From Gordonia heveisoli (GTDB lineage: Bacteria > Actinomycetota > Actinomycetes > Mycobacteriales > Mycobacteriaceae), in the NCBI RefSeq assembly GCF_030315745.1, contig NZ_JASXSH010000002.1, positions 248,001 to 312,000 on the forward strand: 64,000 bases of DNA, read 5' to 3'. The notes beneath the pieces are model-generated. The model was not told the origin of the DNA. It searched no databases and was given only the letters and a program-made list of their open reading frames with translations. The position numbers were made by a program, and so were the translations under genes. Each line of letters starts with the position of its first letter. The first letter of the stretch is position 1. Of this stretch, positions 27,481 through 59,654 are shown one piece after another.

Positions 27481-27494
27481 ATGCCCCACCGTAA

Positions 27495-27536
27495 CGATTC
27501 GGCCGGGGGACCCGCTCCGGTCCCCCGGCCGAATCG
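27495..27536 (-). terminator. Perfect 18-bp hairpin after the DszC-like gene
   Basis: The arms 27495-27512 and 27519-27536 are perfect complements with a six-base loop, located 17 bases beyond the stop of the DszC-like gene and just before the leaderless promoter of the next gene. No T-run on the leftward strand. Confidence 0.8.
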
Positions 27537-27553
27537 CCTTGTGCAGCCGCGTC

Positions 27554-36291: not shown

Positions 36292-37058
<767 letters not shown>

Positions 37059-37211: not shown

Positions 37212-37236
37212 GTTCGGACAAGTCGGGTGTCCGAAC
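37212..37236. promoter_or_regulatory. Inverted repeat operator at the start of the SARP/AfsR-like gene
   Basis: GTTCGGACA and TGTCCGAAC are perfect nine-base arms with a seven-base spacer, ending 10-13 bases before the start codon. It probably overlaps the promoter or leader. Autoregulation or control by another factor is likely. Confidence 0.65.
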
Positions 37237-37249
37237 GGGTTGGGGAATG

Positions 37250-40200
37250 ATGTTCGAGCTGGTGTCCGTGCTGGGACCCACGACGGTGCTGATCGCCGAC
37301 GACGAGGTGCCGGTCACCTCCGGACGCCTTCGGGCCCTGGCCACCAGCCTGACCCTGGCCCATCCGCACGCGGTGGGCGTCGAGCACATCGTCGACGACG
37401 TCTGGCCCGACGATCCGCCGCGGCAGCCGGTGGGAGCCGTACACACCCTCATCTCCCGGCTGCGCACCCTCGTCGGCACTGAGGTCGTCGAATCCACGGT
37501 CGCCGGGTATCGCTGGCGTGTGCCGCACATCGCTTCCGATGTCGGACCCGATCCGGTATCCGATCTCGCCGCCGCGGAGGCCATCGCCCGTGACCCCGAC
37601 GACCGGCGCGCCACCGCTGCGCTGGCCCTGTGGCGCGCCGAACCCGGTGCCGCACTGCCACCCGGACCATTGCGTGACCGGCTACAGGTCCGGGCCCGAC
37701 GCTGCCACCAGGCGCTGCTGGAACATTCCTGGACCCACCGGCTGGCCACCGATCCGCGCCGAGTCGCCGAGGAGATCGCCGCCCATCGGGAACACGGCGC
37801 CGACCTCGACGAACGGCTGGCCGCGCTGGAGATGCACGGCTGGATCCGGGCCGGGGACGCCAACCGCGCGCTCGGTGTCTTCGCCGCGGTGCGTGGCGCC
37901 CTGGCCGAGGAACTCGGCGTCGACCCCGGATCGGAGCTGCTGGCCGCGCACACCGCGGCACTGCGCTCCGGACGTGACACCGACGGCGGCGTGGTCGCCG
38001 AACTCACCGCAACTCCCCCGCCCCCACGGAATGAATTCGTGCCCCGCCCCGCCCTCCTGGCCGAACTTCGCTCCGCACTCACCGAGTCGCCGGTGGTCTG
38101 CGTCGTCGGACCGGGCGGTATCGGGAAGACACGTCTGGTCGCACATCATCTCGCCGCGCATCACCGCGCCGATTCGGCCGGACGCACCGACCCGGACGTC
38201 TTCGTCGACCTGTCCGCCGCCCACACCGCCGCCGATGTCACCGCGGCGGTGGCCGCCGCGGTCGGCAGCGGTGCCGTCTTCGACATCGATTCCGCTACCG
38301 GGCCGCCCACGAGATCTCCGGCGACGATGCTCGCCCAGGTGCTGCCGTCGCGCGCGCTGATCGTCTTCGATGCGTGCGAGTTGGTCGCGGGTGTCGTCTC
38401 CGACCTCGTCCGCGAGGTCGGCGACCTTCGTCGCGACATCCGGGTGCTGGCGACCAGCCGGGTACCGCTGGACCCGGGCACCGGCCGCATCATCGAGGTG
38501 ACAGCGCTCCCGGAAAGTTCTGCGGCACAACTGTTCACCGTCCGCGCACGGGATATCGCGCCGCAGAACCGATTGGATCCCGACGCCGTCGGCGCACTCT
38601 GCCGCCGGCTCGACGGCGCCCCGTTGGCCCTCGAACTGGCCGCGGCCCAGCTACGTCATCTGACGCTGGCCGACCTGATCGACCGACTCGACGCCGACAT
38701 GACCGTGCTACGAGTCGGTGACGGCGGGCGTCACCATTCCCTCGCCGACGTCGTGAAGTCCAGCTGGGAACTGCTGCCGGTACCGGCCCGGGAGGCGCTC
38801 GCCGCACTCGCCCGCTTCTCCGGCGTGTTCTCCCTCGACGACGCGCTCACCTTCGACGAGGTCGACATCGACCACCTGGGAACACTGTGCGCCCACGGCC
38901 TGCTGCGAGTGGTGGACGAGCCGGACAGTCCCGGCGACAACAGCACCGGGCGTACGCATTATCGGCTGACCGAGACCATCCGCGACTTCGCCCGCGAACG
39001 CACCGCGGCACTGCCGTCCCTCGCCGAACATCTGGCCGCCCGGCACCGCCGATGGGCCGGTGAGCAGGTCCGGGATGCGCTGACGCAGTTGCGTACCGGA
39101 CAGGTCGCGCAGGCCGCGGCCGCCTTCGATCGGACTGCCGAATCGATATTGTCGCTACTCGATCCGGACTCGCCGCCGGATCTGACGCTGCTGCCCGCGG
39201 TGTCGTGGCGCTGGCTGCGGACCGGCGGCCACGACGACACCGTGCGGCTGTGCCGCGCGGCGGTTCAGGCAGCGTCGGCGGGAAACGCCGACCCGGTCGG
39301 GTTGTGCTTCGCCATCGTCCACCTCGTCTCACTCGGCGCCTACCGAGATGCGGCTCGCGGACGAATCCTGCTGCGGCGCATCCCCATCGACGAGGACACT
39401 CCCGGCATCGACACACTCGGACGCACCCTGCTGGTAGCACCACCACGCACCGTCGGCCGCATCCTGGCCACCGCTGCGGACGCGACGGATCCGGTGGTGG
39501 CGGCCGCCGCCGACCTCGTCCGCGCCGAAGTTGCCGAACGCAGCGCGAATCCGGTCTTCGCGCGACGCTGCGCCCGGCGCGCCGGGGTCGCCGCCGACCG
39601 CGCCGCCCATCCGTGGCTGTCCGCCAACGCTCGCGGCCGCCTCGGCCGGATCAGCAGCCAGCTCGGCGAGTATCCAGTTGCCGCAATCCATTTCGAACGC
39701 AGTGCGGAAATCTTCGACTCCATCGGCCTCCGCGAGGACGCCGCCCGCATGCGCGTGCACCAGGCGGCCGCCACGGTCGGGGTGGATCGTGCTGCCGCCG
39801 CCGAACTGCTCGCCGAATGCCTCCATGACTCCGGTGCGGGCCACCGCCCGTATGTGGCCACCGCGCATATGGCTCGCGCCCAACTCCTCATCGACTCCGA
39901 CGCCGACCGTGCGCTGAGCGCCGCCGACCGCGCACTGTCGATCGTCGGCGCCCCGTCCGACGGACACTCGGTGCATCTGCACGCGGTCGCCGTCGCCCTG
40001 CTCGCCCATGCCGGTCGTACCACCCACGCGCGCATCGCCGCCGACGATCTCGAAGCGGCGCTCGATCGTCGGCTGCACCGCGGCGACCACGCCGACCTCC
40101 CGTCCCTGGGCGCTGCTGCCGCCGCCATCGTCAAGGCGCGCGGGCTGGCCCCCGACAGTCCGCCGGCCACCGCCGCGCGCACCCTTCGTCACCGGCGCGA

Positions 40201-40291
40201 CTTCGCCGTCCTGGCCCTGCCCGATCTGCCCACTCCCGGGTCCGGCAGCCGTCCCACCAGAGCCGCCGCAATCCATCGTCTGCTGCGCTGA
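37250..40291 (+). CDS. SARP/AfsR-like regulator (wHTH-BTAD-NB-ARC)
   Basis: This 1013-residue regulator has an OmpR-like winged helix (about 1-95; AVHTLISRLRTLVG, then YRWRV), a bacterial transcriptional activation domain (about 100-245; LERLAALEMHGWIRAG-like LDERLAALEMH, RGALAEELGVDPGSEL), an STAND ATPase with Walker A GPGGIGKTRL near residue 286 and Walker B LIVFDAC, and a helical, TPR-like C-terminal half. Such proteins activate secondary-metabolite clusters in a nucleotide-gated way. It precedes the exporter/acyltransferase/glycosyltransferase set on the same strand and is the natural activator of it. ATG 37247 is an alternative start one codon longer. Confidence 0.9.
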   Translation: MFELVSVLGPTTVLIADDEVPVTSGRLRALATSLTLAHPHAVGVEHIVDDVWPDDPPRQPVGAVHTLISRLRTLVGTEVVESTVAGYRWRVPHIASDVGPDPVSDLAAAEAIARDPDDRRATAALALWRAEPGAALPPGPLRDRLQVRARRCHQALLEHSWTHRLATDPRRVAEEIAAHREHGADLDERLAALEMHGWIRAGDANRALGVFAAVRGALAEELGVDPGSELLAAHTAALRSGRDTDGGVVAELTATPPPPRNEFVPRPALLAELRSALTESPVVCVVGPGGIGKTRLVAHHLAAHHRADSAGRTDPDVFVDLSAAHTAADVTAAVAAAVGSGAVFDIDSATGPPTRSPATMLAQVLPSRALIVFDACELVAGVVSDLVREVGDLRRDIRVLATSRVPLDPGTGRIIEVTALPESSAAQLFTVRARDIAPQNRLDPDAVGALCRRLDGAPLALELAAAQLRHLTLADLIDRLDADMTVLRVGDGGRHHSLADVVKSSWELLPVPAREALAALARFSGVFSLDDALTFDEVDIDHLGTLCAHGLLRVVDEPDSPGDNSTGRTHYRLTETIRDFARERTAALPSLAEHLAARHRRWAGEQVRDALTQLRTGQVAQAAAAFDRTAESILSLLDPDSPPDLTLLPAVSWRWLRTGGHDDTVRLCRAAVQAASAGNADPVGLCFAIVHLVSLGAYRDAARGRILLRRIPIDEDTPGIDTLGRTLLVAPPRTVGRILATAADATDPVVAAAADLVRAEVAERSANPVFARRCARRAGVAADRAAHPWLSANARGRLGRISSQLGEYPVAAIHFERSAEIFDSIGLREDAARMRVHQAAATVGVDRAAAAELLAECLHDSGAGHRPYVATAHMARAQLLIDSDADRALSAADRALSIVGAPSDGHSVHLHAVAVALLAHAGRTTHARIAADDLEAALDRRLHRGDHADLPSLGAAAAAIVKARGLAPDSPPATAARTLRHRRDFAVLALPDLPTPGSGSRPTRAAAIHRLLR

Positions 40292-40354
40292 AACCGGTTT
40301 GAAAGTGGCGTCGGCCAGGCTGAGCGGGAACACGCACAGCATCGGAGGACACCA

Positions 40355-41305
40355 GTGGTCACCTTGCCGGAAACGGCCGTCTACGCCGAATCGCTGCGGA
40401 AGTCATTCCGCGGCGTCCACGCGGTCGCCGACGTCAGCTTCGCCATCCCGACCGGCACCGTCTGCGGAATGCTCGGCGCCAACGGCGCGGGGAAGACGAC
40501 GACGGTCCGCATGCTCGCCACCTTGATCCGACCGGACGGTGGCCGGGCCGAGATCTTCGGCCGCGACGTGGTCAGCCAAGCCACCGCCATCCGGTCACTG
40601 ATCTCGCTGACCGGCCAGTATGCGTCACTGGACGAGGATCTGACCGCCATCGAGAACCTCGAACTGTTCGGCAGGCTGCGCGGCCTGAACGGCCGGGGCG
40701 CCCGTACCCGCGCCGGTGAGCTGGTCGACCGGTTCGGACTCGCCGCGGCCGCCGACCGCCCGATCACCGGCTTCTCCGGCGGGATGCGTCGGCGCATCGA
40801 TCTGGCCGCCTCACTGATCACGCCGCCCGCGCTGTTGTTCCTCGACGAGCCGACCACCGGCCTGGACCCGACCACCCGCGCGCAGGTCTGGGCGTGTGTA
40901 CGCGATCTCGTCGACGAGGGCACCACGGTCCTGCTGACCACCCAGTATCTCGACGAGGCCGATCAGCTCGCCGACTCGCTGGTCGTCGTGGATGCGGGGC
41001 GGGTGATCGCCGAGGGCACCGTCGACGTCCTCAAGGACCGCGTCGGGGCGCGATCGCTGGAGGTCAGCGTCGCCGATCCGACCCGCCTCGACGACGCCGT
41101 CGCGATCGTCCGCGCCCGCCTGGGCACCGAGGTCGTTCCCAGCCCCGAGGCGGCCCGGCTGTCGGCCACGCTGACCGACCCCGGCCTGTCCGCCCGGATC
41201 GTCACCGACCTGGAGGCGGCCGGCGTCGTCGTCGCCGAACTGGCGGTGCGCCGCCCGACCCTCGACGAAGTGTTCTTCGCCATGACCCGACAGGAGCCCG
41301 CATGA
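40355..41305 (+). CDS. ABC exporter ATP-binding protein (DrrA-like)
   Basis: This 316-residue ATPase has Walker A GANGAGKTT, Q-loop SLTGQYASLDEDLTA, signature FSGGMRRRIDLA and Walker B LLFLDEPTTGLDP, with the C-terminal extension of the DrrA/daunorubicin-resistance subfamily. That group exports lipophilic metabolites; in mycobacteria the DrrABC system moves phthiocerol lipids. GTG 40355 has GGAGG seven bases upstream. It overlaps the permease gene (ATGA). Confidence 0.93.
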   Translation: MVTLPETAVYAESLRKSFRGVHAVADVSFAIPTGTVCGMLGANGAGKTTTVRMLATLIRPDGGRAEIFGRDVVSQATAIRSLISLTGQYASLDEDLTAIENLELFGRLRGLNGRGARTRAGELVDRFGLAAAADRPITGFSGGMRRRIDLAASLITPPALLFLDEPTTGLDPTTRAQVWACVRDLVDEGTTVLLTTQYLDEADQLADSLVVVDAGRVIAEGTVDVLKDRVGARSLEVSVADPTRLDDAVAIVRARLGTEVVPSPEAARLSATLTDPGLSARIVTDLEAAGVVVAELAVRRPTLDEVFFAMTRQEPA

Positions 41306-42138
41306 GTACCTCACTCGACGTCAGCACCGCACCGGCCGCGTCGATGCGGGACTGGCCGGTGTCACCGGCTACCCGCGTCGGTGTGGGCCAGGCGGTACGC
41401 GACACCCTCACCCTCGCCCGGCGCGGTCTGCTGCGGATGCGTCACACCCCGCAGCAGCTCTTCGACGTCATCGTCGTGCCGATCGTCTTCACGATCCTGT
41501 TCGCCAACATCTTCGGCGGTGCCATCGCCGGCGGCGTGCAGTCCTACCTGCCCGCCCTGGTGCCCGGGGTGCTCGTGTCGGTCGCCATCACCAGCTCGGT
41601 CGTGACCGGCGTGCAATTGCGCGAGGACATCGACAGCGGCGTCTTCGACCGACTGGTGTCACTGCCCATCGCCCGCATCGCGCCGCTGGCCGGCTCGCTG
41701 ACCGCCGACATCCTGCGCTACGCGATCGCCACCACCATGTCGCTGGTCGTCGGACTCGTCCTCGGCTATCGGCCCGGGAGCATCGTCGGCACGCTGGGCG
41801 GCATCCTGCTCGTCGTCTTCGCCGCCTTCTCGATGAGCTGGATCTTCGCACTGATGGGTGTGATCATGTCCAAGGCCAGTGCGGTGCAGGGTATCTCGAT
41901 GCTGATCCTGATGCCGCTCACCTTCACCTCGAACGCCTTCGTACCCACCTCGACGATGCCGGGCTGGTTGCAGACGCTCGCCGACATCAACCCGGTATCG
42001 CATCTGGTGTCGTCGTTCCGGTCGCTCGCCAACGACGGTGCGCTGACCGCGCACATCGGCTGGACGCTGCTCGGTGCCGGGGCGATCATCGCGGTGGCCG
42101 CCCCGCTGGCCTTGCGCGCCTACCTGAGCCGGGTGTGA
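41302..42138 (+). CDS. ABC-2 type exporter permease (DrrB-like)
   Basis: This 278-residue permease has six helices and the ABC-2 layout: the N-terminal MRHTPQQLFDVIVVPIVFTILFA, EDIDSGVFDRLVSLPI and the C-terminal TSNAFVPTSTMPGWLQTLADINPVSHLV that is highly characteristic of DrrB proteins. It forms the transmembrane part of the exporter with the preceding ATPase. The next gene starts three bases after its stop. Confidence 0.92.
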   Translation: MSTSLDVSTAPAASMRDWPVSPATRVGVGQAVRDTLTLARRGLLRMRHTPQQLFDVIVVPIVFTILFANIFGGAIAGGVQSYLPALVPGVLVSVAITSSVVTGVQLREDIDSGVFDRLVSLPIARIAPLAGSLTADILRYAIATTMSLVVGLVLGYRPGSIVGTLGGILLVVFAAFSMSWIFALMGVIMSKASAVQGISMLILMPLTFTSNAFVPTSTMPGWLQTLADINPVSHLVSSFRSLANDGALTAHIGWTLLGAGAIIAVAAPLALRAYLSRV

Positions 42139-42141
42139 CCG

Positions 42142-43503
42142 ATGAACCCTCTTGCCCCCGAACGCCTGACCCCCGACGACGACCTGTTCGTGCGGATGGA
42201 GCACGCTCTGGGCCTGCCGGTCACCAATCAGTGCGTCTGGCAGATCCCCGGCGACACCCCCGAACACGTCATCACCGATCTCGCCGACCGGCTGCGCCGC
42301 GGCCGTCTCAGCCGACTCGTCCGGCGGCGCCGGGTACCCGGCCGAGACCGGTGGATCCACACCCCGGGCGCCGGACGATTCCGGATGTCGCGTCAGCCGA
42401 TCCCGGCCGGTGCGGAGGCCGCCTGGGCCCGCGATCGCGTCGACGAACCTCTTGACACCCGGCACGGACCGTCGTGGCGACTGACCACCGCGCCGTCGTC
42501 GGACGGCGAGTCGATCTTCGTGTCGCTCATCGTCTCCCACGTCGTCGCCGACGGCGGCGCGATCATGGCCGCGGTGTCCGAGGCGGTCGCGGGCATCGAC
42601 TACGACGCGACCGACGCAGCCGGCGGGGTCATCGACAGCCTGCGCGACTCGGCGACGCTGATCGCCACGGCGGGCCGGATGGCCTTCGCCATGGCCGCCG
42701 ACCGCTCGTCGAGCACCTCGCCCACCGCTCGGGCGGTGCCACCTCTCCTGACCACACCGTCCCCGACCATGCCGGGCGGGGACGCAGCATATGCACCGAC
42801 CACCATCCGCACCATCGACGCCGCCGACTTCCGTCGGGCCGCACAGGACGCGGGTGGCACCGCCAATACCCTGTTCGTGGCGATCATGGTCGGGGTTCTC
42901 GAAGACAGCGGACGGGTCGCCCGCGGAACCACCATCGGTGTGTCACTACCGATGTCGGCACGCACCGACGGCGATCGCCGGGCCAACGCGACCACCGGGG
43001 TCACCGCCAGCGTCGAGGTGAGCGCCGACCGCTATCGCGATCTCGGTCCGCTGCGCACCGCCTGCAAGGAGGCCTACCGATCGGCTGCCGCGGGACCCGG
43101 TCCGACCGCCCGGCTGGGGATCGTCGCCCAGGCGCTCGGCGACCGGATGGTCGCCCGGCTGGCCGCCGGGCTCGGCGCACCCCTGTGCCTCGCGTCCAAC
43201 CTCGGCGACCTCGACGACGACTTCGCATCGCTGGGCTCGGCGCTACCCGGCCCGGTCGCGATGCGGTCGGTCGCCGCCGTCGGCGACGGGGATCGACTGC
43301 GCCGCATGGCCGGCGGGGTCAGCGGCTGGGTATCGCAGAGCGCGGGCACGATCACCCTGTGCGCCACCTCCCTCGATCCGGACCGCATCACCGACGACGC
43401 CGCACTGACCGCCGCACTCGACGTCGAACTGGCCCGCTGGGGGTTGACCGCGGCAGGTTGGGGAGGCCGCCGTCCCGCGGCGGAAGAGGCGTTATGCGAA
43501 TAG
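42142..43503 (+). CDS. Condensation/WS-DGAT-like acyltransferase
   Basis: This 453-residue protein carries the acyltransferase motif SHVVADGGA (His133, Asp137, Gly138), a later VSLPMSARTDGDRRAN segment and LCLASNLGDLDDDF, in the positions expected for the condensation/PapA/WS-DGAT superfamily. It would transfer an acyl group to a hydroxyl or amine. It directly follows the DrrAB-like exporter and overlaps the glycosyltransferase gene by ten bases, so acylation of a glycoside is the most economical reading. Donor and acceptor are unknown. Confidence 0.78.
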   Translation: MNPLAPERLTPDDDLFVRMEHALGLPVTNQCVWQIPGDTPEHVITDLADRLRRGRLSRLVRRRRVPGRDRWIHTPGAGRFRMSRQPIPAGAEAAWARDRVDEPLDTRHGPSWRLTTAPSSDGESIFVSLIVSHVVADGGAIMAAVSEAVAGIDYDATDAAGGVIDSLRDSATLIATAGRMAFAMAADRSSSTSPTARAVPPLLTTPSPTMPGGDAAYAPTTIRTIDAADFRRAAQDAGGTANTLFVAIMVGVLEDSGRVARGTTIGVSLPMSARTDGDRRANATTGVTASVEVSADRYRDLGPLRTACKEAYRSAAAGPGPTARLGIVAQALGDRMVARLAAGLGAPLCLASNLGDLDDDFASLGSALPGPVAMRSVAAVGDGDRLRRMAGGVSGWVSQSAGTITLCATSLDPDRITDDAALTAALDVELARWGLTAAGWGGRRPAAEEALCE

Positions 43504-44738
43504 CTTTCGCTCTGCACGGTAGCCGCGGTGACGTCCAGCCGGCTCTCGCGGTGGCCGCCGCCCTCGATGCGCGCGGGCACCGCGTGTCGATCGCGGTGGC
43601 CGCCGACCTGGTGGAGATGATCGAACGCACCGGCCTGCCGACCCGCACACTGTGCCCGTCGACCGCCGAGTTGCTGGCCACCCCGTTGGTCGCCGAACGA
43701 CTCAAATCCGCCAATCCGCGCACCCGCATGCAAGCCCTACGCGAGGTCGGGTCCTACGGGTCCGCGATGTCCGAACAGGTCATGGGTGAGCTCGCCGACG
43801 AGTCCGACGTGCTGGTCACCGGGCTACTCGCCCAGGAGCGGGCAGCGACCATCGCCGAGAGCCGTGGTATCGGATTCATCCCACTGCACTACTGCCCGGT
43901 CCGGGCCAACGCGGCGGTGTCACCCACCTACCGACGCCTGCCCCGCCCGGCCCGGGCCGCCCTGTGGTCCGTCGTCGACCACGGCTATTGGCTCAGCACG
44001 CGGGGCGACGACCGCGCGTTGCGCGTACGGCTCGGGCTGCCCGTCGCCGACCAGCCGCTGGGCCGACGATTGCGTTCGGCCGGCCGGCCCGAAGTGCAGG
44101 CCTACGACCCGGCACTCTTCGACGGACTCGCCACGGAGTGGGGAGACCAGCGTCCGTTCAGCGGATTCCTGGTGCCCGACGACATGACCCGGCGCGCCCT
44201 CAACGGCGACGACACCGCCACCATCGATGCCATCGCCTGGGCCGATACCGGCCCGCCGCCGGTGTATGTCGGATTCGGCAGCATGCCGGTACCTGCGGCC
44301 CGGATCGGCTCCATCGTCGGCCACCTGCGCGCCCGCGGGCTGCGGGTCATCGCCCACACCACGCATCACATCACCGAGGGCGACGGCGGCACCGACGATG
44401 CGGTGCTTGCGGTTGGAACCGGCCTCGACCATGAGCGGCTGCTGCCCCACTGTCATGGCGCGGTGCATCACGGCGGGGCCGGTACGACCGCGGCCGCGGC
44501 CCGTGCGGGCATCCCGTCGGTGATCGGATGGTTCAGTGCCGATCAACCGATGTGGGCGGGCGCGCTGGCCCGAGCCGGGGCCGGCCGCGGCGCGCGGCTC
44601 ACCCGTCTGGCACCCACCGATCTGGATGCGCTCACCGATCCCGCCGTCATCGTCGCCGCACGCACCCTCGCGCGGCGACTCGTTCCGGTGGCCGAAGCCC
44701 GCGACACCGTCTGCCGAGTCATGCTCGAGTCAGCATAG
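43494..44738 (+). CDS. GT1 family glycosyltransferase
   Basis: This 414-residue enzyme has the N-terminal HGSRGDVQP motif and the C-terminal donor-binding VHHGGAGTTAAAARAG, both typical of the GT1 enzymes that glycosylate mycobacterial glycopeptidolipids, phenolic glycolipids and bacterial sterols. YVGFGSMPV is the usual mid-protein motif. It uses a nucleotide sugar; the acceptor is probably the lipid made or modified by the neighbouring acyltransferases. ATG 43494 lies within the upstream gene, after GAAGAGG. Confidence 0.92.
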   Translation: MRIAFALHGSRGDVQPALAVAAALDARGHRVSIAVAADLVEMIERTGLPTRTLCPSTAELLATPLVAERLKSANPRTRMQALREVGSYGSAMSEQVMGELADESDVLVTGLLAQERAATIAESRGIGFIPLHYCPVRANAAVSPTYRRLPRPARAALWSVVDHGYWLSTRGDDRALRVRLGLPVADQPLGRRLRSAGRPEVQAYDPALFDGLATEWGDQRPFSGFLVPDDMTRRALNGDDTATIDAIAWADTGPPPVYVGFGSMPVPAARIGSIVGHLRARGLRVIAHTTHHITEGDGGTDDAVLAVGTGLDHERLLPHCHGAVHHGGAGTTAAAARAGIPSVIGWFSADQPMWAGALARAGAGRGARLTRLAPTDLDALTDPAVIVAARTLARRLVPVAEARDTVCRVMLESA

Positions 44739-45204
44739 GCCCACGATGCCGTCCGCCACAGTGAGCAACAACACGCACCCGTCGGTTGTGTGCCGCGACA
44801 CAGAAATTCGGCCCGGCCAACTTTTTCTCATCGTGAAAACAATCGGCTGCCAGGTGATTTCATCTTGCGTTAACCAGCGCAAGAACAGGTTTCGCACTCG
44901 GACCGGAAGTCTGGTCAGACTCGGCCGCGCACCTTAGGCTCACGAACGAATGCAGTACGCATTCATCGTCCGTCTGTCGGTTGGGGGTAGACGGGCACCA
45001 GAATCGAAAAGTGTCAGACGAATCCGCTCACCGACGCGCGTTCGTCGGTCGATGCCATGCCGGCGATGTCCGCAACCCGCGGATCGCAAGCGGCACGACC
45101 GGTCTGACACTCATCTCGAGATACCCAACGACAGGCCGGAGAGTCCGCCATCGCGGCTCCGGCGCTGTCCCGCCATTGCACTAGCGCCAGAGGTATCAAG
45201 AACA
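44739..45204. other. Intergenic region inside the glycolipid-type locus
   Basis: The 466 bases contain an AT-richer stretch (44815-44870), a small hairpin CTTGCG/CGCAAG (about 44872-44891), a -10-like TAGGCT near 44936 and an inverted repeat GAATGC-AGTAC-GCATTC at 44948-44964. Together they suggest a second promoter with an operator and a leader of roughly 250 bases before the next acyltransferase gene. The open frame running through it is rich in Arg and Ser and does not look coding. Confidence 0.45.
44948..44964. promoter_or_regulatory. Inverted repeat near an internal promoter
   Basis: GAATGC and GCATTC flank AGTAC. The repeat lies just downstream of a TAGGCT -10-like box, where a repressor would act. 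Confidence 0.4.
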
Positions 45205-46683
45205 GTGGAGTACACGGAGTTCGCCGACTATCCGACTCCTTCGGGGGTTATCACCGAGTGGATCCCTTCGACCGCGGAATCCGCCTGGGCCGACGATGAT
45301 CGGCCGTTGTCGACCAATCACGCCGCACATCTCGCCCACACTCGCGACCACGACACGTCATGGATCGGCACCGCCTTCTACCTCGAGGGCACCCTCGATC
45401 CGAGAGCCTTCGCGACCACGCTGCGTCGATGGTTCGCACGCCACGAGACCTTCCGGACCACCGCGGTCGCGGCCGGCGACGGACTGCGCCGTCGGGTGCT
45501 GGACACCGGGTCGCTGGCCATCGATGTCCGCCGGTACGGCCGGGTCCGCTCCTCGCTGGACGTCTATCGCCACATCGAGGCCTTCCTCGCCTCCGAGGTG
45601 CGTGCGCACACCTGGCCGCACATCGTCTTCACCACAGTCGAACACGCCGCGCACGCCGACGACCGCGCCAACTGCGATCCGCAGACCACCGAGGGATTCA
45701 CCGTCGTCTTCGGCGCCGACCATGCGGTGATGGATGCCTACACCCAGGTCGTGGCCATCGTCGAGCTCCGCGAGATCTATCGCGCGGTCGTCGCCGGAAC
45801 CGAGCCGGCACTTCCCGGCTGCGGGTCCTTCGTCGACCACAGCGCCGCCGAGAGTCTGGCCGCCGCCGCACTCACCGTCGACCATCCGGCGGTGCGCGCC
45901 TGGGATGACTTCCTGAGCGCGGATACCGTTGCCGCACACTCGGGCAGCGACGCTGACCGGCTTCCGGCATTCCCGCTTCCGGTGGGGCCGAAGGAAACCG
46001 ATCGCGCGGGTGGCACCACCCAGTCGAGCGTCTCGCTGTGGATTCTGCCGCGCGCACAGACCGAGGCGTTCAGCGCGGTCTGCAAGGCGTCGGGCAGTTC
46101 CGGTTCCACCGGCATCCTCACCGCGATCGGCATCGCGCTGGCCCGGCTCAGCGGCGACCGGGTCAATCGCTACATCATGCCGATGCATACCCGGACCTCC
46201 CCCGAGTGGTATCTCGCGGCGGGCTGGTTCGTGGGCCTGATCCCGGTGCACGACGACCTCGGTGCGGCCGAGTCCTTCACCACCGCACTCACCGGCACCG
46301 CCACCGCGTCGAAGGCGCACCGCGCCCTGGCCGCGCATTCCTTCGGCCGGGTGGCCGAACTTCTGGAGATCTCGCCCCGACCGCGTTTCGTGGTGTCCTA
46401 CATCGACGGGCGGACCATCCCCGGTGCCGGCGAGTGGACCGCGCGCGACCGGGCGTTGCGCAGTCCGGTCCGGAGCGACGACGAGGTCTACCTGTGGATC
46501 AACCGCACGGCCGACGGCATCAACCTGTCCACCCGGTTCCCCGGCAACGACACGGCCAGCGCCTCGGTGCACGCATTCATCGCCGAGTTCTCCGCCGTGC
46601 TGCGTGAGGTCGCCGAGCACGGCGACGCACCGGTGATCGCCGATCCCGTGGTCGTCCGGACGGACGGCGGTGACCGGCGATGA
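45205..46683 (+). CDS. PapA/condensation-like acyltransferase 1 of a tandem triplet
   Basis: This 492-residue protein begins with an EYTEFADYPTPSGVITEWIP segment like those that open mycobacterial PapA proteins, then WIGTAFYLEGTLDP, RRWFARHETFRTT and the active-site region GADHAVMDAYT (His173, Asp177; HxxxD without the following Gly). MPMHTRTSPEWYLAAGWFVGLIPV matches the later PapA strand. It probably transfers an acyl group from a thioester or CoA. GTG 45205 is chosen because family similarity starts there; no good ribosome binding site is visible. Its stop overlaps the next gene (ATGA). Confidence 0.8.
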   Translation: MEYTEFADYPTPSGVITEWIPSTAESAWADDDRPLSTNHAAHLAHTRDHDTSWIGTAFYLEGTLDPRAFATTLRRWFARHETFRTTAVAAGDGLRRRVLDTGSLAIDVRRYGRVRSSLDVYRHIEAFLASEVRAHTWPHIVFTTVEHAAHADDRANCDPQTTEGFTVVFGADHAVMDAYTQVVAIVELREIYRAVVAGTEPALPGCGSFVDHSAAESLAAAALTVDHPAVRAWDDFLSADTVAAHSGSDADRLPAFPLPVGPKETDRAGGTTQSSVSLWILPRAQTEAFSAVCKASGSSGSTGILTAIGIALARLSGDRVNRYIMPMHTRTSPEWYLAAGWFVGLIPVHDDLGAAESFTTALTGTATASKAHRALAAHSFGRVAELLEISPRPRFVVSYIDGRTIPGAGEWTARDRALRSPVRSDDEVYLWINRTADGINLSTRFPGNDTASASVHAFIAEFSAVLREVAEHGDAPVIADPVVVRTDGGDRR

Positions 46684-48074
46684 GGATCGTGGCCCGACGT
46701 GAGTGGCATCCCGAAGCCGGCACCGTCGTCGACTGGGTACCGACCGCACGCACCATCAATGCGGCGAAAGGCGCTCCACCGCATCCGGTTCCGGTGTCTT
46801 TCCTACAGCGTGATCACATCACCGGCGTGCTGGCCGCCCGCGCCGAGGACCGACCGCATCGCGCCTACACCTGTGCCGCGGTCCAGGTACCCGGTCGGTT
46901 CGACGAGTCGCGGCTGACCGCGGCTCTGACCTCGTTCCTGCGCGATCATCCTGGCCTGCGCTGTGTCTTCCGCGCCGACGGCGAACAACTCACCCGTCAT
47001 CTGATCGTTGCCGGCGACGTCGAGCTGACCACCGAGCATCCCGTGGTGGCCGACCGGGACATCGCCGCGCACATCGATGCCCGGCTGGCGCGGTCGGCCG
47101 TCTTCGACTCCTTCCCGGCCGTCGTCTTCGGTGCGGTCGTGCGTCACGACGGATTCGATCTGTACTTCGGCATCGACCATGCCTTCGGGGACGGCAGTTC
47201 CCAGGCCATCGGGATCGCCGACATCCTCGACCGCTATCACGGCGGCGCGGGGTTCCGGTCCGGCAGTCACATCGACCATGTGGCAACCGAATACGCGCTC
47301 GCCGGACAGATCGCGGAACGAGACGCCGAGGTGGCGGAATGGGCGGATGCCCTGCGGCCCACCGACGGTCGCCTACCCGGGTTCGCCCTCGATCTCGGAC
47401 TCGAGCAGACTGCTGCCGGTCCGGTCCCCCAGCGGGTCCGGATTCGTCGTGCCCAACTCGCCGACGCCGAGGACACCGAGGCGATAGCGGCCGTCGCGGC
47501 GGCGGCCGGGACCGGGTTCACCGCCGCCGTCTACGCCGCCCTCGCCCTCGCCGACCGCGAACTCGGTGGGCGCGATCACTTCGCCACCGCGACAGTGCTG
47601 AGTACCCGGGGCAGCGCTGAACACCAGCTCGCTCAGGGCTGGTACTGCAATTTCGCCCCGGTCGCCTTCCCGGTACAGGGTGCGACGCTGCGGGAGGTGA
47701 TCGGCGACGCCGCCGCCGGTCTGTCGCGAGCGCGCCGGTTGTCGGCGCTGCCCGCACACGCCGTGCTGGCCACCCTGATCGGGACGGGCCGGGTCGATCC
47801 GTCGGTGGCGGGCAGCCCACAGATGGTGTCCTACCTGGATTTCCGGTGGTTCCCGGCTCAACGCGAACTGTCCGACGCAGTGCTCTTCACCGGCGAGGGC
47901 CGCACCCGCAATGCGTCGCAATGGATCAGCCGCGACCACGACGGCTTGTGGATCGCCACCCAGTGTCCGGACAATCCGGTCGCCGGGGCTGCGGTCACCC
48001 GCTACTTCGACACGGTGCGGGCACATCTGACCGCCGCGCTCACCGCTCCCGTCGCGATCGGACTGGGCGCTTGA
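46680..48074 (+). CDS. PapA/condensation-like acyltransferase 2 of a tandem triplet
   Basis: This 464-residue protein shares layout with its neighbours: EAGTVVDWVPT, PVPVSFLQRDHI, LTSFLRDHPGLRCVFR and a complete active-site motif GIDHAFGDGSS (His167, Asp171, Gly172). A later LSTRGSAEHQLAQGWYCNFAPV and SYLDFRWFP follow the PapA pattern. It has the best-preserved motif of the three tandem genes and is likely active. It overlaps both neighbouring genes by four bases, so the three products are made together. The substrate is unknown. Confidence 0.82.
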   Translation: MRIVARREWHPEAGTVVDWVPTARTINAAKGAPPHPVPVSFLQRDHITGVLAARAEDRPHRAYTCAAVQVPGRFDESRLTAALTSFLRDHPGLRCVFRADGEQLTRHLIVAGDVELTTEHPVVADRDIAAHIDARLARSAVFDSFPAVVFGAVVRHDGFDLYFGIDHAFGDGSSQAIGIADILDRYHGGAGFRSGSHIDHVATEYALAGQIAERDAEVAEWADALRPTDGRLPGFALDLGLEQTAAGPVPQRVRIRRAQLADAEDTEAIAAVAAAAGTGFTAAVYAALALADRELGGRDHFATATVLSTRGSAEHQLAQGWYCNFAPVAFPVQGATLREVIGDAAAGLSRARRLSALPAHAVLATLIGTGRVDPSVAGSPQMVSYLDFRWFPAQRELSDAVLFTGEGRTRNASQWISRDHDGLWIATQCPDNPVAGAAVTRYFDTVRAHLTAALTAPVAIGLGA

Positions 48075-49360
48075 GGGTCACCGCGGTCGGACACGTCGAA
48101 TTCCGCGGCGCCCTGGTGGAATTCGTCCTGGACTGGGCGGGAGAACCCGACCCGCAGGGCGCGCCGGTGTCCTTCAACCAGGGCAATCACCTCCGCCAGC
48201 ACGCGACACCCGGCAGCCGGCCGGTGTGGCTGGCAGGCAGCGTCGAGCTGGCGGGCCCCGCCCTCCCCGACGGCGACGTCGCGGGAGTGGATATCGCCCG
48301 TGTCGCCACGGTGATCGGGCAGGTGATAGCCGAACAGGAGGCGCTCCGGCTGCGATTCCGTTGCGACCCGGAGCCCCGCCAGCATCTCTTCAGCCCCGAC
48401 CAGCTACAGGTCACCCCGCGTCACGCCGGGATGGTGGACACCGATGATGTGGTGGCGCTGCTCAATTCGCGCTGTCATCCGCGGGCGAGTCCGGGTCTGT
48501 GCTTCGCGCTGGTCGGCACCACCCTGCTGTGCGGTTTCGACCATGCCCACGCCGACGCGTTGACGATCGACATCGTGCTGCGCCGCATCGTCGCCCTCTA
48601 CCACGATCCGGCCACCCCGGCGCCGGTCGTCGCGGGGTTCGTCCAACGGTGCATCAGCGAGGATGCCCGTCCGACCATGAACGAATCTGCGGACCGGGCA
48701 GCGGGTTTCGCCACCTGGGAGCAGTTCTTCGCCGAGACCGGCGGCAAGGTTCCGCGCTTCCCACTACCGCTGGGCGACGTACCCGCCGCCACCGGTCAGG
48801 CGACTCACGTCCGGACGTTGCTCGCCGACGAGGACGCTGCGCACCTCGACGACGGCCTGTTCGCGGCCCTGCTGTCCGAACTCGCGGGCGCCGTCGCCGA
48901 CCTCGGCGGTCCCGATCGGCTGGCTACGCTGATCCCCCTGCACACCCGCGGTCGGCGGGACTCCGGGTGGCATGCCACGGCAGGCTGGCTGGTGACCAAC
49001 GCGCCGGTGGTCGTCGACGGCGGTGACCGGCCCGGCGCGCGGGCCGCGATACGGCGGGCGGTGGATGCCGCCGGTATCCCGCTCCCCGATGTGCTCGCCC
49101 GCTGCGCACCGCAACTCCCGGCGGGCGACCTGTTCATGGTGTCGTTCCTGGACTATCGCAAACTGGGTCCGGAACTTCGCGGCGGACAACATATCTCGGC
49201 CTGCTCGACCGCCGATGACGTACAGATCTGGTTCTCCCGCACGCACCGTGGACTCGACGTCCGGGTGCGGTATCCGGCGACCGCGACGGCCACAGCGGCC
49301 GTCGTCGGCCTCACCGATGCCCTCGCCCGGCGGCTTCGCCAACCGGTGCCGGTCTCGTAG
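48071..49360 (+). CDS. PapA/condensation-like acyltransferase 3 of a tandem triplet
   Basis: This 429-residue protein has SFNQGNHLRQH, EQEALRLRFRCDP and CGFDHAHADALT (His158, Asp162; the Gly after Asp is replaced by Ala), then LIPLHTRGRRDSGWHATAGWLVTNAPV and MVSFLDYRKLGPEL. It is a third, divergent member of the same superfamily. The start is read as TTG 48071, overlapping the preceding stop (TTGA); no better in-frame start is close. The degenerate motif leaves activity uncertain. Its stop is nine bases from the convergent phospholipase gene. Confidence 0.75.
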   Translation: MRVTAVGHVEFRGALVEFVLDWAGEPDPQGAPVSFNQGNHLRQHATPGSRPVWLAGSVELAGPALPDGDVAGVDIARVATVIGQVIAEQEALRLRFRCDPEPRQHLFSPDQLQVTPRHAGMVDTDDVVALLNSRCHPRASPGLCFALVGTTLLCGFDHAHADALTIDIVLRRIVALYHDPATPAPVVAGFVQRCISEDARPTMNESADRAAGFATWEQFFAETGGKVPRFPLPLGDVPAATGQATHVRTLLADEDAAHLDDGLFAALLSELAGAVADLGGPDRLATLIPLHTRGRRDSGWHATAGWLVTNAPVVVDGGDRPGARAAIRRAVDAAGIPLPDVLARCAPQLPAGDLFMVSFLDYRKLGPELRGGQHISACSTADDVQIWFSRTHRGLDVRVRYPATATATAAVVGLTDALARRLRQPVPVS

Positions 49361-49368
49361 CGGTCGGG

Positions 49369-50928
49369 CTACCCGACCGGGCCGCTGGGCGCCCGCCGCG
49401 ACCCGGGCTGCTGGCGCGGCATCGAATTGCGCGGCACCGGATAGGGCGTACCGTGCCCGAGCGTCCCCAGCGCCACATTCGGACCACATTGGGCCAGCGA
49501 GTTCTTGGCCTGCGGTACCGGATCGCCGAATCGTGGCCGGGAGGCGTTGGGCCGACGCGCGAAGTCGAAGGTCGAGGTCATGTCGCCGGTCACGCTGCGG
49601 CGCCACGGTGTCAGGTTCGGCACCTCGACACCGAACCGCTTCTCCAGTAGGCGCAACTGCGAGGTGTGGTCGAAGGTCTCCGAGGCGACGAGACCACCTC
49701 GGCTGTAGGGCGAGATGACCAGACACGGCACCCGGTAGCCCAGCCCGATCGGTCCGCGGATTCCCTTCGACGACTTGACCTTTCCGATGTCGGGAACGCT
49801 CACGAACTCCCCCGGCGTGCGCGCGGGCGGGGTGGGCGGGGTGACATGGTCGAAGAATCCACCGTTTTCGTCGTAGCTGATGATCAGCGCGGTCTTCTCC
49901 CAGACCGCCGGATTCGAGGTGAGGATGTCGAGCAGTTGCACGATGCCGACCGCACCGAAGGAGGCAGGCAGCGCCGGGTGTTCGCAGGTGAACGCCGACG
50001 GCACCACCCACGACACCTTCGGAAGCCTACCGGTGCGCACATCCTCGGCGAAGCCCTGCGGATACACCGGGTCGATGCCGCGACGCGCCAGCTCCGACCG
50101 CGGATCACGGGCCTGCCGGAAGCAGCCCATCATGCCGTCGAGGATCACCGACGACACCGGTCCGATGTCGCGGTTGTTGTAGATCTTCCAGCTGACGCCG
50201 GCGTCGCGCAGATTCTCCGGCATCGTGCGCCACGAATAGGCGAACTTCGGGATGAGCGTAGGGGTTTCGAGCAGCGGTCCACCATGGCTGCCGTCCGGGT
50301 CGATGGTCGCGCTCATCCAGTACAGCCGATTCGGGTCGGTGGGCCCCAGCACCGAGCAGTGGTAGTTGTCGCACAGGGTGAACGCCTCGGCCAGCGACCG
50401 ATGTACGGGTATGTCGGCGCGTTCGTAGTAGCCCATCAGCGCGGGCGCGTTGGCTGCGCCCACCGCCTCGACCGACATCGGCAGCCAGCCGTCGTTGCGA
50501 CCACCGTTCCACGCGCGGTGCATACCCGCCCACGAATGATCGGGGTCGTTGATGCACTCGCCATCCAACCGGGTGTCGTGGCGGGTGTCGAGGCGGAACG
50601 GCAGCGTGTACCCCGTGCGCGTGGGCCCGACACCCGGCGCCCAGCCGTACTGCTTCCACACCGAGGACTGGTCGCCGAAACCCCGAACTCCTGAATAGGT
50701 GCCGAAATAGTGGTCGAAGGACCGGTTCTCCTGCATGAACAGCACGATGTGCTCGATGTCGTTCAGCGATCCGGTGCCTGCCGGGTCGGCCGAGGCGTAG
50801 GCCTTGTCGATGATCGGCGCCGCCCACGAGGTCAGCAGCGCCCCACCACCGGCGGCGGTGACCCGGGCGAGGAAGTCGCGTCGTGACAATCCCCCGAAAA
50901 GCTGCTCGGAACGGGTCTCCTCGGACAA
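49369..50928 (-). CDS. Tat-exported phospholipase C (phosphoesterase family)
   Basis: This 519-residue enzyme has a twin-arginine signal ([10 protein letters not shown] followed by a hydrophobic stretch) and the bacterial phospholipase C/acid phosphatase domain: [21 protein letters not shown], ITDEHxxHSW-like [47 protein letters not shown] and [14 protein letters not shown]. These provide the metal and catalytic threonine-type sites of the family. It would cleave host or self phospholipids outside the cell. The C-terminal about 60 residues are disordered. No operon partners. Confidence 0.93.
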
Positions 50929-51584: not shown

Positions 51585-53594
51585 GTGAGCCAAACTCCCC
51601 GGCACCGGCGGATATCTGGCAACCTTCCCCCAATGCGGGTGGGGGTACACAGGACGTCGCCGGGCGCCGGATTCCGGCGACCCGTCACCCGAGTGGCGCT
51701 ACCGCTACTCGCCGCGCTCGCACTGCTGACGGGCGCGATGCATTCTCCGGCCGCCGACGCGACCCCAACCACCACCGCCGAGGTCAACGCCCTGGCGGGG
51801 CGCTGCGTCGCCCTGTCTCACCAGGGTGGTCCGCTCGGTACCGGCTCGGGTCCGTTCCGCGTGCGGGCCGCGGGCCTGGGGCGGTTCCTGTTCTACGGCA
51901 CGGACGCGCGGCTGCTCAGTGCCGGTCCACGCGGATCGGTTGCGGTGGAGCCGAGGCCGACCTCGCGATCCATCTGGGCCGCGACCGGTTCGGCCGCGGG
52001 CATCACCCTGCGATCGGGCGCCGTCGAACTCCACGGGGTGCAATCGCGAGCGGCCACCGGATGCCGGAACTTTCCGGATGCCGAACTCGATGTGGACGGC
52101 GCACCGTTCACCGGTGTCGACGGTGACGGCAACCTGCGCGGATTCGTCGATTCCCACGCCCACCTGATGTCCGAACAGTTCCTCGGCGGCGAATTCCATT
52201 GCGGCGCGCCCTATAGCCCACTCGGGGTCACCGTCGCCCTGCGGGACTGTCCCGACCACGGTCGCGACGGCGTCCTCGCGGTCGGCGAACAGGTCCTCAG
52301 CCGACCGGGACCACACGACACCGTGGGTTGGCCGACCTTCCGCGACTGGCCGCGCTGGGATTCCCTGACCCACGAGCAGACGTACTACCGCTGGATCGAG
52401 CGCGCGTGGCGGTCCGGCCTGCGCATGATCGACAACTACTACGTCCAGAACCGCGTGCTCTGCGAGAACTACCCGCTACGCGATCAGCCGTGCGACGAGA
52501 TGGAATCGATCCGCATCCAGCACCGCATGCTGCTCGGTCTGCGCGACTACATCGACGCGCAGGCCGGCGGTCCCGGCCGCGGGTTCCTGCGCATCGTGAC
52601 CACCGCGGCGCAGGCCCGCCGAGTCGTCGCCGCGGGCAAACTCGCCGTCACCCTCGGCATCGAGGTCGCCGAACCGTTCGGATGCCGCGAGGGTGCCCCC
52701 GGCCGGCCCGCCGCCTGTGACCGCGCAGCCATCGACCGTGGGCTCGACGAATTGCGTGCCCTGGGGATCCGGCAGGTGATCCTGACCCATAAATTCGACA
52801 ACGCGCTCGGCGGCACCCGGTTTGATCAGGGCGCCACCGGTGTCGCGGTCAACGCCGGGCAGCAACTGTCCACCGGACATCCGTGGGTGACCCAGCCGTG
52901 CCCCACCGACCAGCACGACAACCCCGTCGTCGGCTATCCCCGTAACGCCTGCAACGTCCGGGGATTGACCGCCCTCGGCGAGTACACGGTGCGCGCGATC
53001 ATCGCGCGACGCATGATCGTCGACGTCGACCACCTGAGCGTCAAATCTGCCACCCGGGTCCTCGACATCATTGCCGCACACCACTATCCGGGAGTCGTGT
53101 CGTCACACAGCTGGACCGACAAGACGAACTACCGGCGCATCCTCACCGCGGGTGGCGCGGTCGGCCTGTTCGCCACCCCCGCCGAAGCCGAGCCCGGTGA
53201 GGTCGGCCGCCACGGCGACCTGCCACCAGACTTCCTGTCCGCGTGGCGGATCCTGCGCGCCCAGCGCGATCCCCGGTTCTACTTCGGAGTGGGGTTCGGA
53301 CCGGATATGGGCGGGCTGGGCAAACAGGCCCACCCGCGCCCGTCCGCCACGCGCACACCCGTCGTCTACCCCTTCCTCGCCGCTGATGGCCGCACCCGGA
53401 TCTGGCGGCAGGTGACCGGCCGCCGGGTCTTCGACGTCAATCGCGATGGAACCGCCCATTACGGACTACTTCCTGATTGGATCGAGAGCCTGCGCGTGCA
53501 GGCCGGTGCGGACGGCCCGCGACTCGTCGGCGATCTGTTCGCCGCCGCCGAGGCCTACGTCCGGATGTGGGAGCGGGTGGAAGGATCTCGATGA
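51585..53594 (+). CDS. Secreted membrane-dipeptidase-like metallohydrolase
   Basis: This 669-residue protein has a signal peptide (hydrophobic residues about 38-52) and an amidohydrolase-fold domain of the renal dipeptidase type: GFVDSHAHLM (first metal HxH), MIVDVDHLSVKSA, GVVSSHSWTD (metal histidine) and YFGVGFGPDMGGLG (catalytic aspartate region). The N-terminal 150 residues form a separate beta-rich domain, and the central part has insertions, so it is larger than a simple dipeptidase. ATG 51633 is an alternative start. It overlaps the transporter gene that follows (ATGA). The peptide or lactone substrate is unknown. Confidence 0.82.
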   Translation: MSQTPRHRRISGNLPPMRVGVHRTSPGAGFRRPVTRVALPLLAALALLTGAMHSPAADATPTTTAEVNALAGRCVALSHQGGPLGTGSGPFRVRAAGLGRFLFYGTDARLLSAGPRGSVAVEPRPTSRSIWAATGSAAGITLRSGAVELHGVQSRAATGCRNFPDAELDVDGAPFTGVDGDGNLRGFVDSHAHLMSEQFLGGEFHCGAPYSPLGVTVALRDCPDHGRDGVLAVGEQVLSRPGPHDTVGWPTFRDWPRWDSLTHEQTYYRWIERAWRSGLRMIDNYYVQNRVLCENYPLRDQPCDEMESIRIQHRMLLGLRDYIDAQAGGPGRGFLRIVTTAAQARRVVAAGKLAVTLGIEVAEPFGCREGAPGRPAACDRAAIDRGLDELRALGIRQVILTHKFDNALGGTRFDQGATGVAVNAGQQLSTGHPWVTQPCPTDQHDNPVVGYPRNACNVRGLTALGEYTVRAIIARRMIVDVDHLSVKSATRVLDIIAAHHYPGVVSSHSWTDKTNYRRILTAGGAVGLFATPAEAEPGEVGRHGDLPPDFLSAWRILRAQRDPRFYFGVGFGPDMGGLGKQAHPRPSATRTPVVYPFLAADGRTRIWRQVTGRRVFDVNRDGTAHYGLLPDWIESLRVQAGADGPRLVGDLFAAAEAYVRMWERVEGSR

Positions 53595-59548: not shown

Positions 59549-59564
59549 GACACACCCTCCCGTG

Positions 59565-59613
59565 TGGTGACAGGTGTACCCAGAATAGATCATTCTGGGA
59601 ACACCTGTCACCA
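59565..59613. promoter_or_regulatory. 49-bp near-perfect palindromic operator between mpaB-like and TetR genes
   Basis: The 22-base arms 59565-59586 and 59592-59613 match at 21 of 22 positions around a five-base spacer (AGATC). A TATTCT box for the leftward gene lies inside it. The length suits two TetR dimers. Confidence 0.9.
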
Positions 59614-59654
59614 AATATCCGTTCACGATTGTCGACAGCCGTATGCTGAGGATC

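Follow-up and report, generated by a model that had tools for sequence, protein, structure and literature searches.

In mycobacteria, the loci for sulfolipid-1 (SL-1) and for the di- and polyacyltrehaloses (DAT and PAT) combine PapA1, PapA2 and PapA3 with Pks and FadD proteins and with MmpL8 or MmpL10, and phthiocerol dimycocerosate (PDIM) is exported by DrrABC. Here we describe a block of eight neighbouring genes on the + strand (37247-49360; Table 1) of a 64,000-nucleotide stretch of the Gordonia heveisoli genome (contig NZ_JASXSH010000002.1, positions 248,001 to 312,000; hereafter the window). Like the SL-1 and DAT/PAT loci, this block encodes PapA2-like HxxxD acyltransferases and presumably works on a trehalose core; unlike them, it has no linked polyketide synthase (PKS), FadD or MmpL gene among the window open reading frames (ORFs) that we scanned, and it adds a GT1-family glycosyltransferase (GT), a DrrAB exporter and four acyltransferase genes (AT1, PapA_a, PapA_b and PapA_c), all behind a gene for a SARP/AfsR-like regulator. 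The first-pass annotation of this DNA had set the block apart from mycobacterial loci on account of the missing PKS, FadD and MmpL genes, and this is borne out: Pfam searches of 57 window ORFs, a selected subset that includes a few in the wrong frame, gave matches neither to ketoacyl-synthase nor to AMP-binding nor to MMPL models at E ≤0.001. We think it probable that the eight genes build and export a trehalose-based sugar lipid with about four ester-linked acyl chains, and the cassette that they represent is best read as a PKS-free, MmpL-free route to a trehalose-based oligosaccharide ester lipid. If this is true, multiply acylated sugars are made without a dedicated PKS, FadD or MmpL.

The trehalose lipids produced by Gordonia, Rhodococcus, Nocardia and Tsukamurella have been studied as biosurfactants (reviews including PMC4365757), and the lipid class considered here, trehalose-based di- to pentasaccharide esters, is chemically known. 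In the part of PMC4365757 available to us, Rhodococcus sp. and R. fascians are named as sources of trisaccharide succinic tetraesters bearing acyloxyacyl chains, Nocardia corynebacteroides (the review's spelling) SM1 as the source of a pentasaccharide succinic octaester, and Tsukamurella tyrosinosolvens as that of tri- and tetrasaccharide esters. Succinoyl trehalose disaccharide lipids are also known (PMC8396431, PMC4365757), and the accessible sections of PMC8396431 call the genetic basis of succinoyl trehalolipids still poorly understood. According to those sections, Rhodococcus sp. I2R makes succinic esters of di- and trisaccharides that carry hydroxyacyl as well as secondary acyl chains, their structures predicted by tandem mass spectrometry, and has four papA genes on contig 9, at 137187 (1461 nt), 138665 (1431), 140099 (1404) and 143010 (1488). 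The word 'undescribed', which the first-pass annotation had applied to the lipid of the window block, is therefore not supported: the class is known, and four papA genes in nearly the same layout were already published for I2R in 2021.

The block is more than a chance neighbourhood, since its core set recurs in other genera. Searches by tblastn with the eight proteins recovered this set, re-ordered or inverted, in Gordonia, Williamsia, Nocardia salmonicida and Rhodococcoides. Corynebacterium, G. malaquae and G. spumicola gave partial sets; the closest relative, in Gordonia sp. ABSL49_1 (L059), conserves order and strand at 55-86% identity. PapA_a and PapA_b are adjacent in 77 of 88 related loci, and within 12 kb of such a pair we find AT1 in every case (77/77), PapA_c in 69 and the GT in 68, the three PapA genes, AT1 and the GT occurring together in 67. 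Other companions within this distance are a GT2 (32 cassettes), a mycoloyltransferase-like gene (19) and a SARP homologue (5). As the 88 loci were picked through GT or PapA_a matches, these counts are not frequencies in nature. The genes thus stay linked in relatives despite rearrangement, and the refuting condition named by the first-pass annotation, a lack of linkage in related genomes, is for the most part not observed. That the block is a fortuitous gathering of envelope genes with separate roles is very improbable and already largely refuted: the differing gene orders and strands among relatives and the abundance of Condensation-like genes in the window genome (56 matches) would be in keeping with it, but AT1 beside every adjacent PapA_a/PapA_b pair, the full core set in 67 cassettes and a Gordonia genome (L172, below) that lacks the block as a unit between the same flanks all argue against it.

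The association between the GT and AT1 is particularly close. Among 59 Gordonia genomes, a close GT (at least 58% identity) is present in 22 and an AT1 of the window group (a cut by score, with a best match of at least 176 bits) in 31, and all 22 fall within the 31 (Fisher p 2.2e-9, uncorrected for kinship); with looser cuts (GT at least 150 bits, any AT1) the numbers rise to 30 and 38, there is still no GT without AT1, and p is 8e-10, again uncorrected for kinship. The two genes lie fewer than 20 bases apart in 17 of the 22 genomes and overlap in the window. The original suggestion that the GT and the acyltransferases serve one pathway is thus supported insofar as the GT occurs only together with AT1, mostly next to it, and is weakened by five of the 22 genomes (L079-L083), in which the GT is solitary and away from AT1. 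For two of these (L079 and L082), a comparison of neighbours by their first residues, without Pfam, found no cassette gene adjoining the GT, and distant DrrA-like matches (29-38%) lie near four of the five. Nine of the 31 AT1-bearing genomes, moreover, are without this GT. Such cases, and the existence of succinoyl trehalose disaccharide lipids in the literature cited above, would suit an alternative in which the acyltransferases yield a trehalose disaccharide bearing acyl groups, and the neighbouring GT belongs to a separate pathway. We regard this as quite unlikely given the spacing of the two genes, the lack of any GT without AT1 in the 59 genomes and the agreement in Rhodococcoides between the number of GTs and the number of sugars reported (below). 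More widely, a relative of the GT (E ≤1e-40) is found in 157 of 401 genomes sampled from the family and in 14 of 31 genera, not all of these being cassettes.

All four acyltransferase-family proteins carry the HxxxD motif of the superfamily that unites PapA proteins, wax ester synthase/diacylglycerol acyltransferase (WS/DGAT) enzymes and condensation domains. In distinct homologues (from loci L039-L098 and L129-L148, with paralogues included and matches shorter than 75% of the query excluded) the H and D are invariant, in 82/82 for PapA_a, 64/64 for PapA_b, 56/56 for PapA_c and 97/97 for AT1. PapA_a and PapA_b match Pfam Condensation (53.6 and 51.3 bits) and the PapA2 structure 6aef (E 9.8e-25 and 1.7e-31, the latter being the sole PDB match of PapA_b at E ≤0.01). 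PapA_c alone matched no Pfam model; a profile of 16 sequences ranks PapA2 first (E 2.5e-40), and its AlphaFold2 model (pLDDT 91.1) superimposes on PapA2 with a TM-score of 0.83. AT1 likewise matched no Pfam model, its 12-sequence profile weakly matches the WS/DGAT enzyme WSD (7nxg, E 7e-5), and its model (pLDDT 81.9) resembles 8s6l (TM 0.64) and PapA5 and WS/DGAT structures (0.51-0.55); the 50 matches listed for it span TM 0.42-0.64 and include condensation-type structures of nonribosomal peptide synthetases (NRPSs). Judged by profile and predicted fold, AT1 and PapA_c belong to the same superfamily as PapA_a and PapA_b, the two-lobed condensation/PapA fold being modelled for the former pair and assigned from sequence for the latter.

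The nearest solved structure for PapA_a, PapA_b and PapA_c is thus PapA2, a trehalose-2-sulfate acyltransferase, and because it is the first PDB match for all three (for PapA_c through its profile), it points to trehalose as the core. The presence in some sister cassettes of a mycoloyltransferase gene (F13; homologues in 19/77) points the same way, as the one member that we examined (L057) is of the Cmt1/Ag85 type (E 2.6e-55), a family that uses trehalose mycolates. Both arguments for trehalose as acceptor are indirect. The core that is acylated several times and exported could instead be something else than trehalose, such as a glucosylated hydroxy-lipid, glycerol or a carotenoid glucoside; we consider this unlikely, and yet it has points in its favour. 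The GT, which scores above cut-off for EryCIII-like_C (41.7 bits versus 31.7, scanned from 43500) and for Glyco_transf_28, has solved relatives that act on glycopeptides and sterols (GtfB, 1iir, E 5.1e-21; also GtfA and a sterol glucosyltransferase); the block holds no trehalose gene; and carotenoid glucosides bearing mycolate are known in relatives and would fit the mycoloyltransferase of the sister cassettes. On the other side, the nearest enzyme to PapA_a, PapA_b and PapA_c is one that works on trehalose, the gene set tracks taxa known for trehalose oligosaccharide lipids, and no carotenoid gene turned up among the 57 window ORFs.

Under the trehalose-based proposal, the GT would add a hexose to trehalose to give a trisaccharide like the glucotriose of Rhodococcus, and PapA_a, PapA_b, PapA_c and AT1 would take acyl groups, of medium-chain, hydroxy- or succinyl-type, from CoA thioesters that ordinary metabolism supplies and attach them to different hydroxyls or to a 3-hydroxyacyl chain that is in place beforehand. 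No dedicated PKS or FadD would be needed because the donors would be ordinary acyl-CoAs. DrrAB would then export the product, and the SARP would switch the block on. We infer the substrate, product, order of reactions and export in this scheme, as well as the trehalose core and the positions of the acyl groups. What the analysis itself demonstrates is the gene content, the motifs, the predicted folds of AT1 and PapA_c, the fact that the set recurs and stays linked, and its occurrence in genera or species that are known producers of such lipids.

Very probably, the papA genes published for Rhodococcus sp. I2R form this same cassette, a conclusion that we draw from their tabulated layout, because their stop-to-stop distances (1448/1407/2995) match those of L149 from Rhodococcus sovatensis (1450/1398/2991) and of L158 (1448/1421/3000), with a total deviation of 15 and 19 bases, respectively. 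L149 and L158 have the order PapA_a, PapA_b, PapA_c, sseA, PapA_a' at the acyl-CoA carboxylase locus, and I2R is like these Rhodococcoides loci in that three consecutive papA genes are followed, after about 1.5 kb, by a fourth, with similar lengths and spacing. The exact I2R layout, as given in the accessible sections of PMC8396431, was found in none of the compared genomes, where there are near matches only. In those sections the I2R papA genes are not listed with a GT, AT1 or exporter as one set. They are described there as the closest I2R relatives of TlsA, of the succinoyl trehalose lipid of Rhodococcus sp. SD-74, at about 30% similarity, a likeness known to us through that paper. Compared with the window block, the Rhodococcoides version has two AT1 genes, lacks DrrAB and SARP in the fetched stretch and occupies the accD5-accA3 site. 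In a literature search that left subscription journals mostly outside its reach, we found no publication that defines the gene set, and PMC8396431, seen in part, was the only one to tie a papA group to such lipids; the accessible part of PMC13206832 mentions an NRPS cluster of R. oxybenzonivorans in which one papA3 and a glycosyltransferase gene are near each other.

A gene set that is defined and recurs, and whose enzymes can be counted against sugar and acyl units, makes the genetic basis of these lipids directly testable, and the counts agree in part with the structures listed in the accessible part of PMC4365757. Of the 31 Rhodococcoides genomes in which the family-wide sample above gave a GT match, we fetched 27. 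In 20 of these the locus has one GT with two AT1 genes, PapA_a-b-c and, where the contig reaches, PapA_a'; the complete loci of this kind have six acyltransferase genes, and the trisaccharide lipid needs, by count, six acyl transfers. The other seven have three GTs (two GT1 and one GT2), which together with trehalose would give a pentasaccharide, and the eight esters of the octaester exceed the six acyltransferase genes there. In one of these three-GT loci (L141), a GT shares 99% identity with a protein of Rhodococcoides corynebacterioides, a species with the same taxid as Nocardia corynebacterioides, the name under which the pentasaccharide lipid was reported. One GT thus accompanies a trisaccharide and three a pentasaccharide, with a partial fit in T. 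tyrosinosolvens, where one GT stands beside tri- and tetrasaccharides. In T. tyrosinosolvens NCTC13231 (L179, a record named 'plasmid 9') the maf-sseA interval encodes three PapA5-like acyltransferases, a GT1, an AT1-type enzyme and a VC0807 protein, followed beyond the interval by sseA, sufE, a PapA_a relative (47% to L070) and accA3. This locus is like the Williamsia and Rhodococcoides cassettes in its genomic site, its GT1, its AT1-type enzyme and its further acyltransferases; it differs in that three of its acyltransferases are PapA5-like (PapA_C) instead of PapA_a-b-c, in the extra VC0807-family protein and in having no DrrAB. A GT and several acyltransferases are therefore co-located in lipid-making taxa, at genus or species level, namely Rhodococcoides, an R. 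corynebacterioides-like genome and T. tyrosinosolvens; R. fascians is represented here by its GT alone (P0024).

Several observations weigh against the trehalose-lipid proposal, in addition to the lack of a trehalose gene in the block, the solitary GTs and the AT1-bearing genomes without this GT described above. The window GT sits in a clade apart from the GTs of the one-GT Rhodococcoides loci (the GT and AT1 of the window both group with Gordonia and Williamsia), so the sugar and acyl pattern is not directly transferable from Rhodococcoides, and T. tyrosinosolvens has one GT and yet a reported tetrasaccharide (per the part of PMC4365757 available to us), three of its acyltransferase genes being PapA5-like. 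The compared genomes are not confirmed as strains of the published lipids. PapA_a-like and DrrB-like matches occur in all 59 Gordonia genomes, and for these two, therefore, linkage is informative and presence is not. DrrAB lies within 12 kb in only 31 of the 77 cassettes, and the stretches fetched for the 20 one-GT Rhodococcoides loci do not contain it. Finally, the match to PapA2 would also fit acylation of another sugar. The initial idea of a sugar acylated several times by separate enzymes and then exported survives in that one pathway is supported and export is probable, and needs amending in that the exporter is not a constant part. A broader proposition, which we put forward tentatively and would not rate at even odds, is that cassettes of this family underlie, as a general rule, the orphan trehalose-based oligosaccharide ester surfactants of Mycobacteriales: the number of GTs would determine the number of sugars, PapA_a/b/c and AT1-type enzymes would set the ester pattern from ordinary acyl-CoAs, sister forms would add mycolate after export, and the product of the window strain would be a new trisaccharide tetraester, with DrrAB as its exporter and the SARP in control.

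As regards the exporter, the block is like the PDIM exporter DrrABC in that DrrA passes the TIGR01188 drrA cut-off (327.4 bits versus 312.45), which places it in the DrrA subfamily, and in that an ABC-2 permease is present (Pfam ABC2_membrane 98.4 bits, above cut-off; 86% identity to its counterpart in L059). Unlike DrrABC, the block has no DrrC gene, and the permease scores lower than the DrrB and DrrC models require (TIGR00025, 79.6 versus 146.9 bits; TIGR01247, 67.4 versus 223.05), and so we call it DrrB-type by neighbourhood and weak similarity. The regulator has a BTAD domain (38.2 bits versus a cut-off of 22.1), with AAA_16 and nSTAND1 (AAA/STAND NTPase) only below cut-off, and it misses the AfsR equivalog NF053617 (90.1 bits versus 1430); we therefore file it only as SARP-type. 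A SARP homologue lies upstream of DrrA in L059, L041, L042, L048 and L094. Position and family would make DrrAB the exporter and the SARP an activator of the block.

All eight genes of the first-pass annotation are present on the + strand as it had stated, with one change of coordinates: its SARP start at 37212 is out of frame, and the gene begins at 37247. It had also described the genes as mostly overlapping, which is true of four junctions (DrrA/DrrB, PapA_a/PapA_b and PapA_b/PapA_c by 4 bases each, AT1/GT by 10) and not of the GT and PapA_a, which are separated by about 466 bases. Two transcription units are therefore likely, the interval between them likely carrying the promoter of the PapA_a-b-c unit; a promoter and terminator scan of the block region gave no sigma-70 consensus match and nothing exceeding shuffles. 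PapA_a possibly starts further upstream, at 44950 or 45052.

Table 1. Genes and intergenic interval of the G. heveisoli block, in window coordinates
Feature	Position	Strand	Basis
SARP/AfsR-like transcriptional regulator	37247-40291	+	Pfam BTAD
DrrA-type ABC ATPase, putative exporter component	40355-41305	+	TIGR01188 drrA
DrrB-type ABC-2 permease	41302-42138	+	Pfam ABC2_membrane
AT1, HxxxDG acyltransferase-family protein, motif SHVVADG, distantly WSD/PapA5-like	42142-43503	+	Profile and predicted fold
GT1-family glycosyltransferase	43494-44738	+	Pfam EryCIII-like_C, Glyco_transf_28
Intergenic gap, putative promoter of the PapA_a-b-c unit	44739-45204	.	Sequence
PapA_a, PapA2-like acyltransferase, motif DHAVMDA	~45205-46683	+	Pfam Condensation, PapA2 match
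PapA_b, PapA2-like acyltransferase, motif DHAFGDG	46680-48074	+	Pfam Condensation, PapA2 match
PapA_c, PapA2-like acyltransferase, motif DHAHADA	48071-49360	+	Profile and predicted fold

The cassette is a block that changes place among relatives. In the window it is flanked by an Rpf-like gene (36666-37058) and a gene for a Tat-signal, phosphocholine-type phospholipase C (PLC; 49369-50928, - strand) that scores under the TIGR03396 equivalog cut-off. Gordonia G008 (L172) has the same Rpf and PLC flanks in the same order with no cassette between them, 2.0 kb separating the two and an additional 5.1 kb lying upstream of Rpf; the other six loci fetched around the homologue of 51585-53594 (L173-L178) do not show these flanks. 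The accD5-maf/sseA-accA3 locus houses 40 of the 77 cassettes, many of the Williamsia and all of the fetched Rhodococcoides cassettes being at accD5-maf ... sseA-papA-accA3, and the window genome's own accD5-maf-sseA-PapA-accA3 locus (L169) is without a cassette. A reading of the Williamsia flank as the mycolate locus aftB-fbpA-fadD32 was ruled out, as Pfam shows accD5-maf ... sseA-papA-accA3.

We note some variants of the cassette in other genomes. In Williamsia and a same-genus genome (L137/L171, L145 and L073) two cassettes stand in tandem, the first with AT1-GT-mycoloyltransferase-PapA_abc and DrrAB upstream, the second with GT-GT2 and further PapA genes, and with DrrBA in L137/L171 and L145; this suggests two related lipids or one composite. 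In M. antarcticum (L139) and a Mycobacterium-like genome (L140), a single stretch combines a GT, two to three AT1-type genes, a distantly related PapA and a relative of DrrA, and this may be a mycobacterial counterpart. In six Corynebacterium loci (L062-L065, L075 and L076), PapA_a, b and c are accompanied by AT1 or GT, the genes being distributed over both strands, and the fetched stretches contain no DrrAB.

Elsewhere in the window, 26146-27903 (- strand) encodes a further WS/DGAT-type acyltransferase, by a C-terminal domain match, amid acyl-CoA dehydrogenase, thiolase-like and enoyl-CoA hydratase genes; 58466-59806 (- strand) encodes a protein with an MPAB/Lcp-type rubber oxygenase domain; and a tRNA call at 12579 lies on the strand opposite a BipA-like gene. 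The 56 Condensation-domain matches of the window genome fall mostly in very long NRPS-like frames (C2, C7, C23, C31, C63, C64 and others), a large number of NRPS modules for only 4.46 Mb of genome, and its contig C45 (L170) has another PapA-like gene 0.6 kb from a 40% homologue of the cassette mycoloyltransferase. Lastly, on plasmids of two nodulating bacteria, Sinorhizobium fredii (L181) and Cupriavidus taiwanensis (L182), the gene for a condensation protein resembling PapA_a (27-31% identity) stands close to one for a sulfotransferase, and genes for a GMC oxidoreductase and an aminotransferase accompany them, an arrangement reminiscent of a sulfotransferase/PapA pair.

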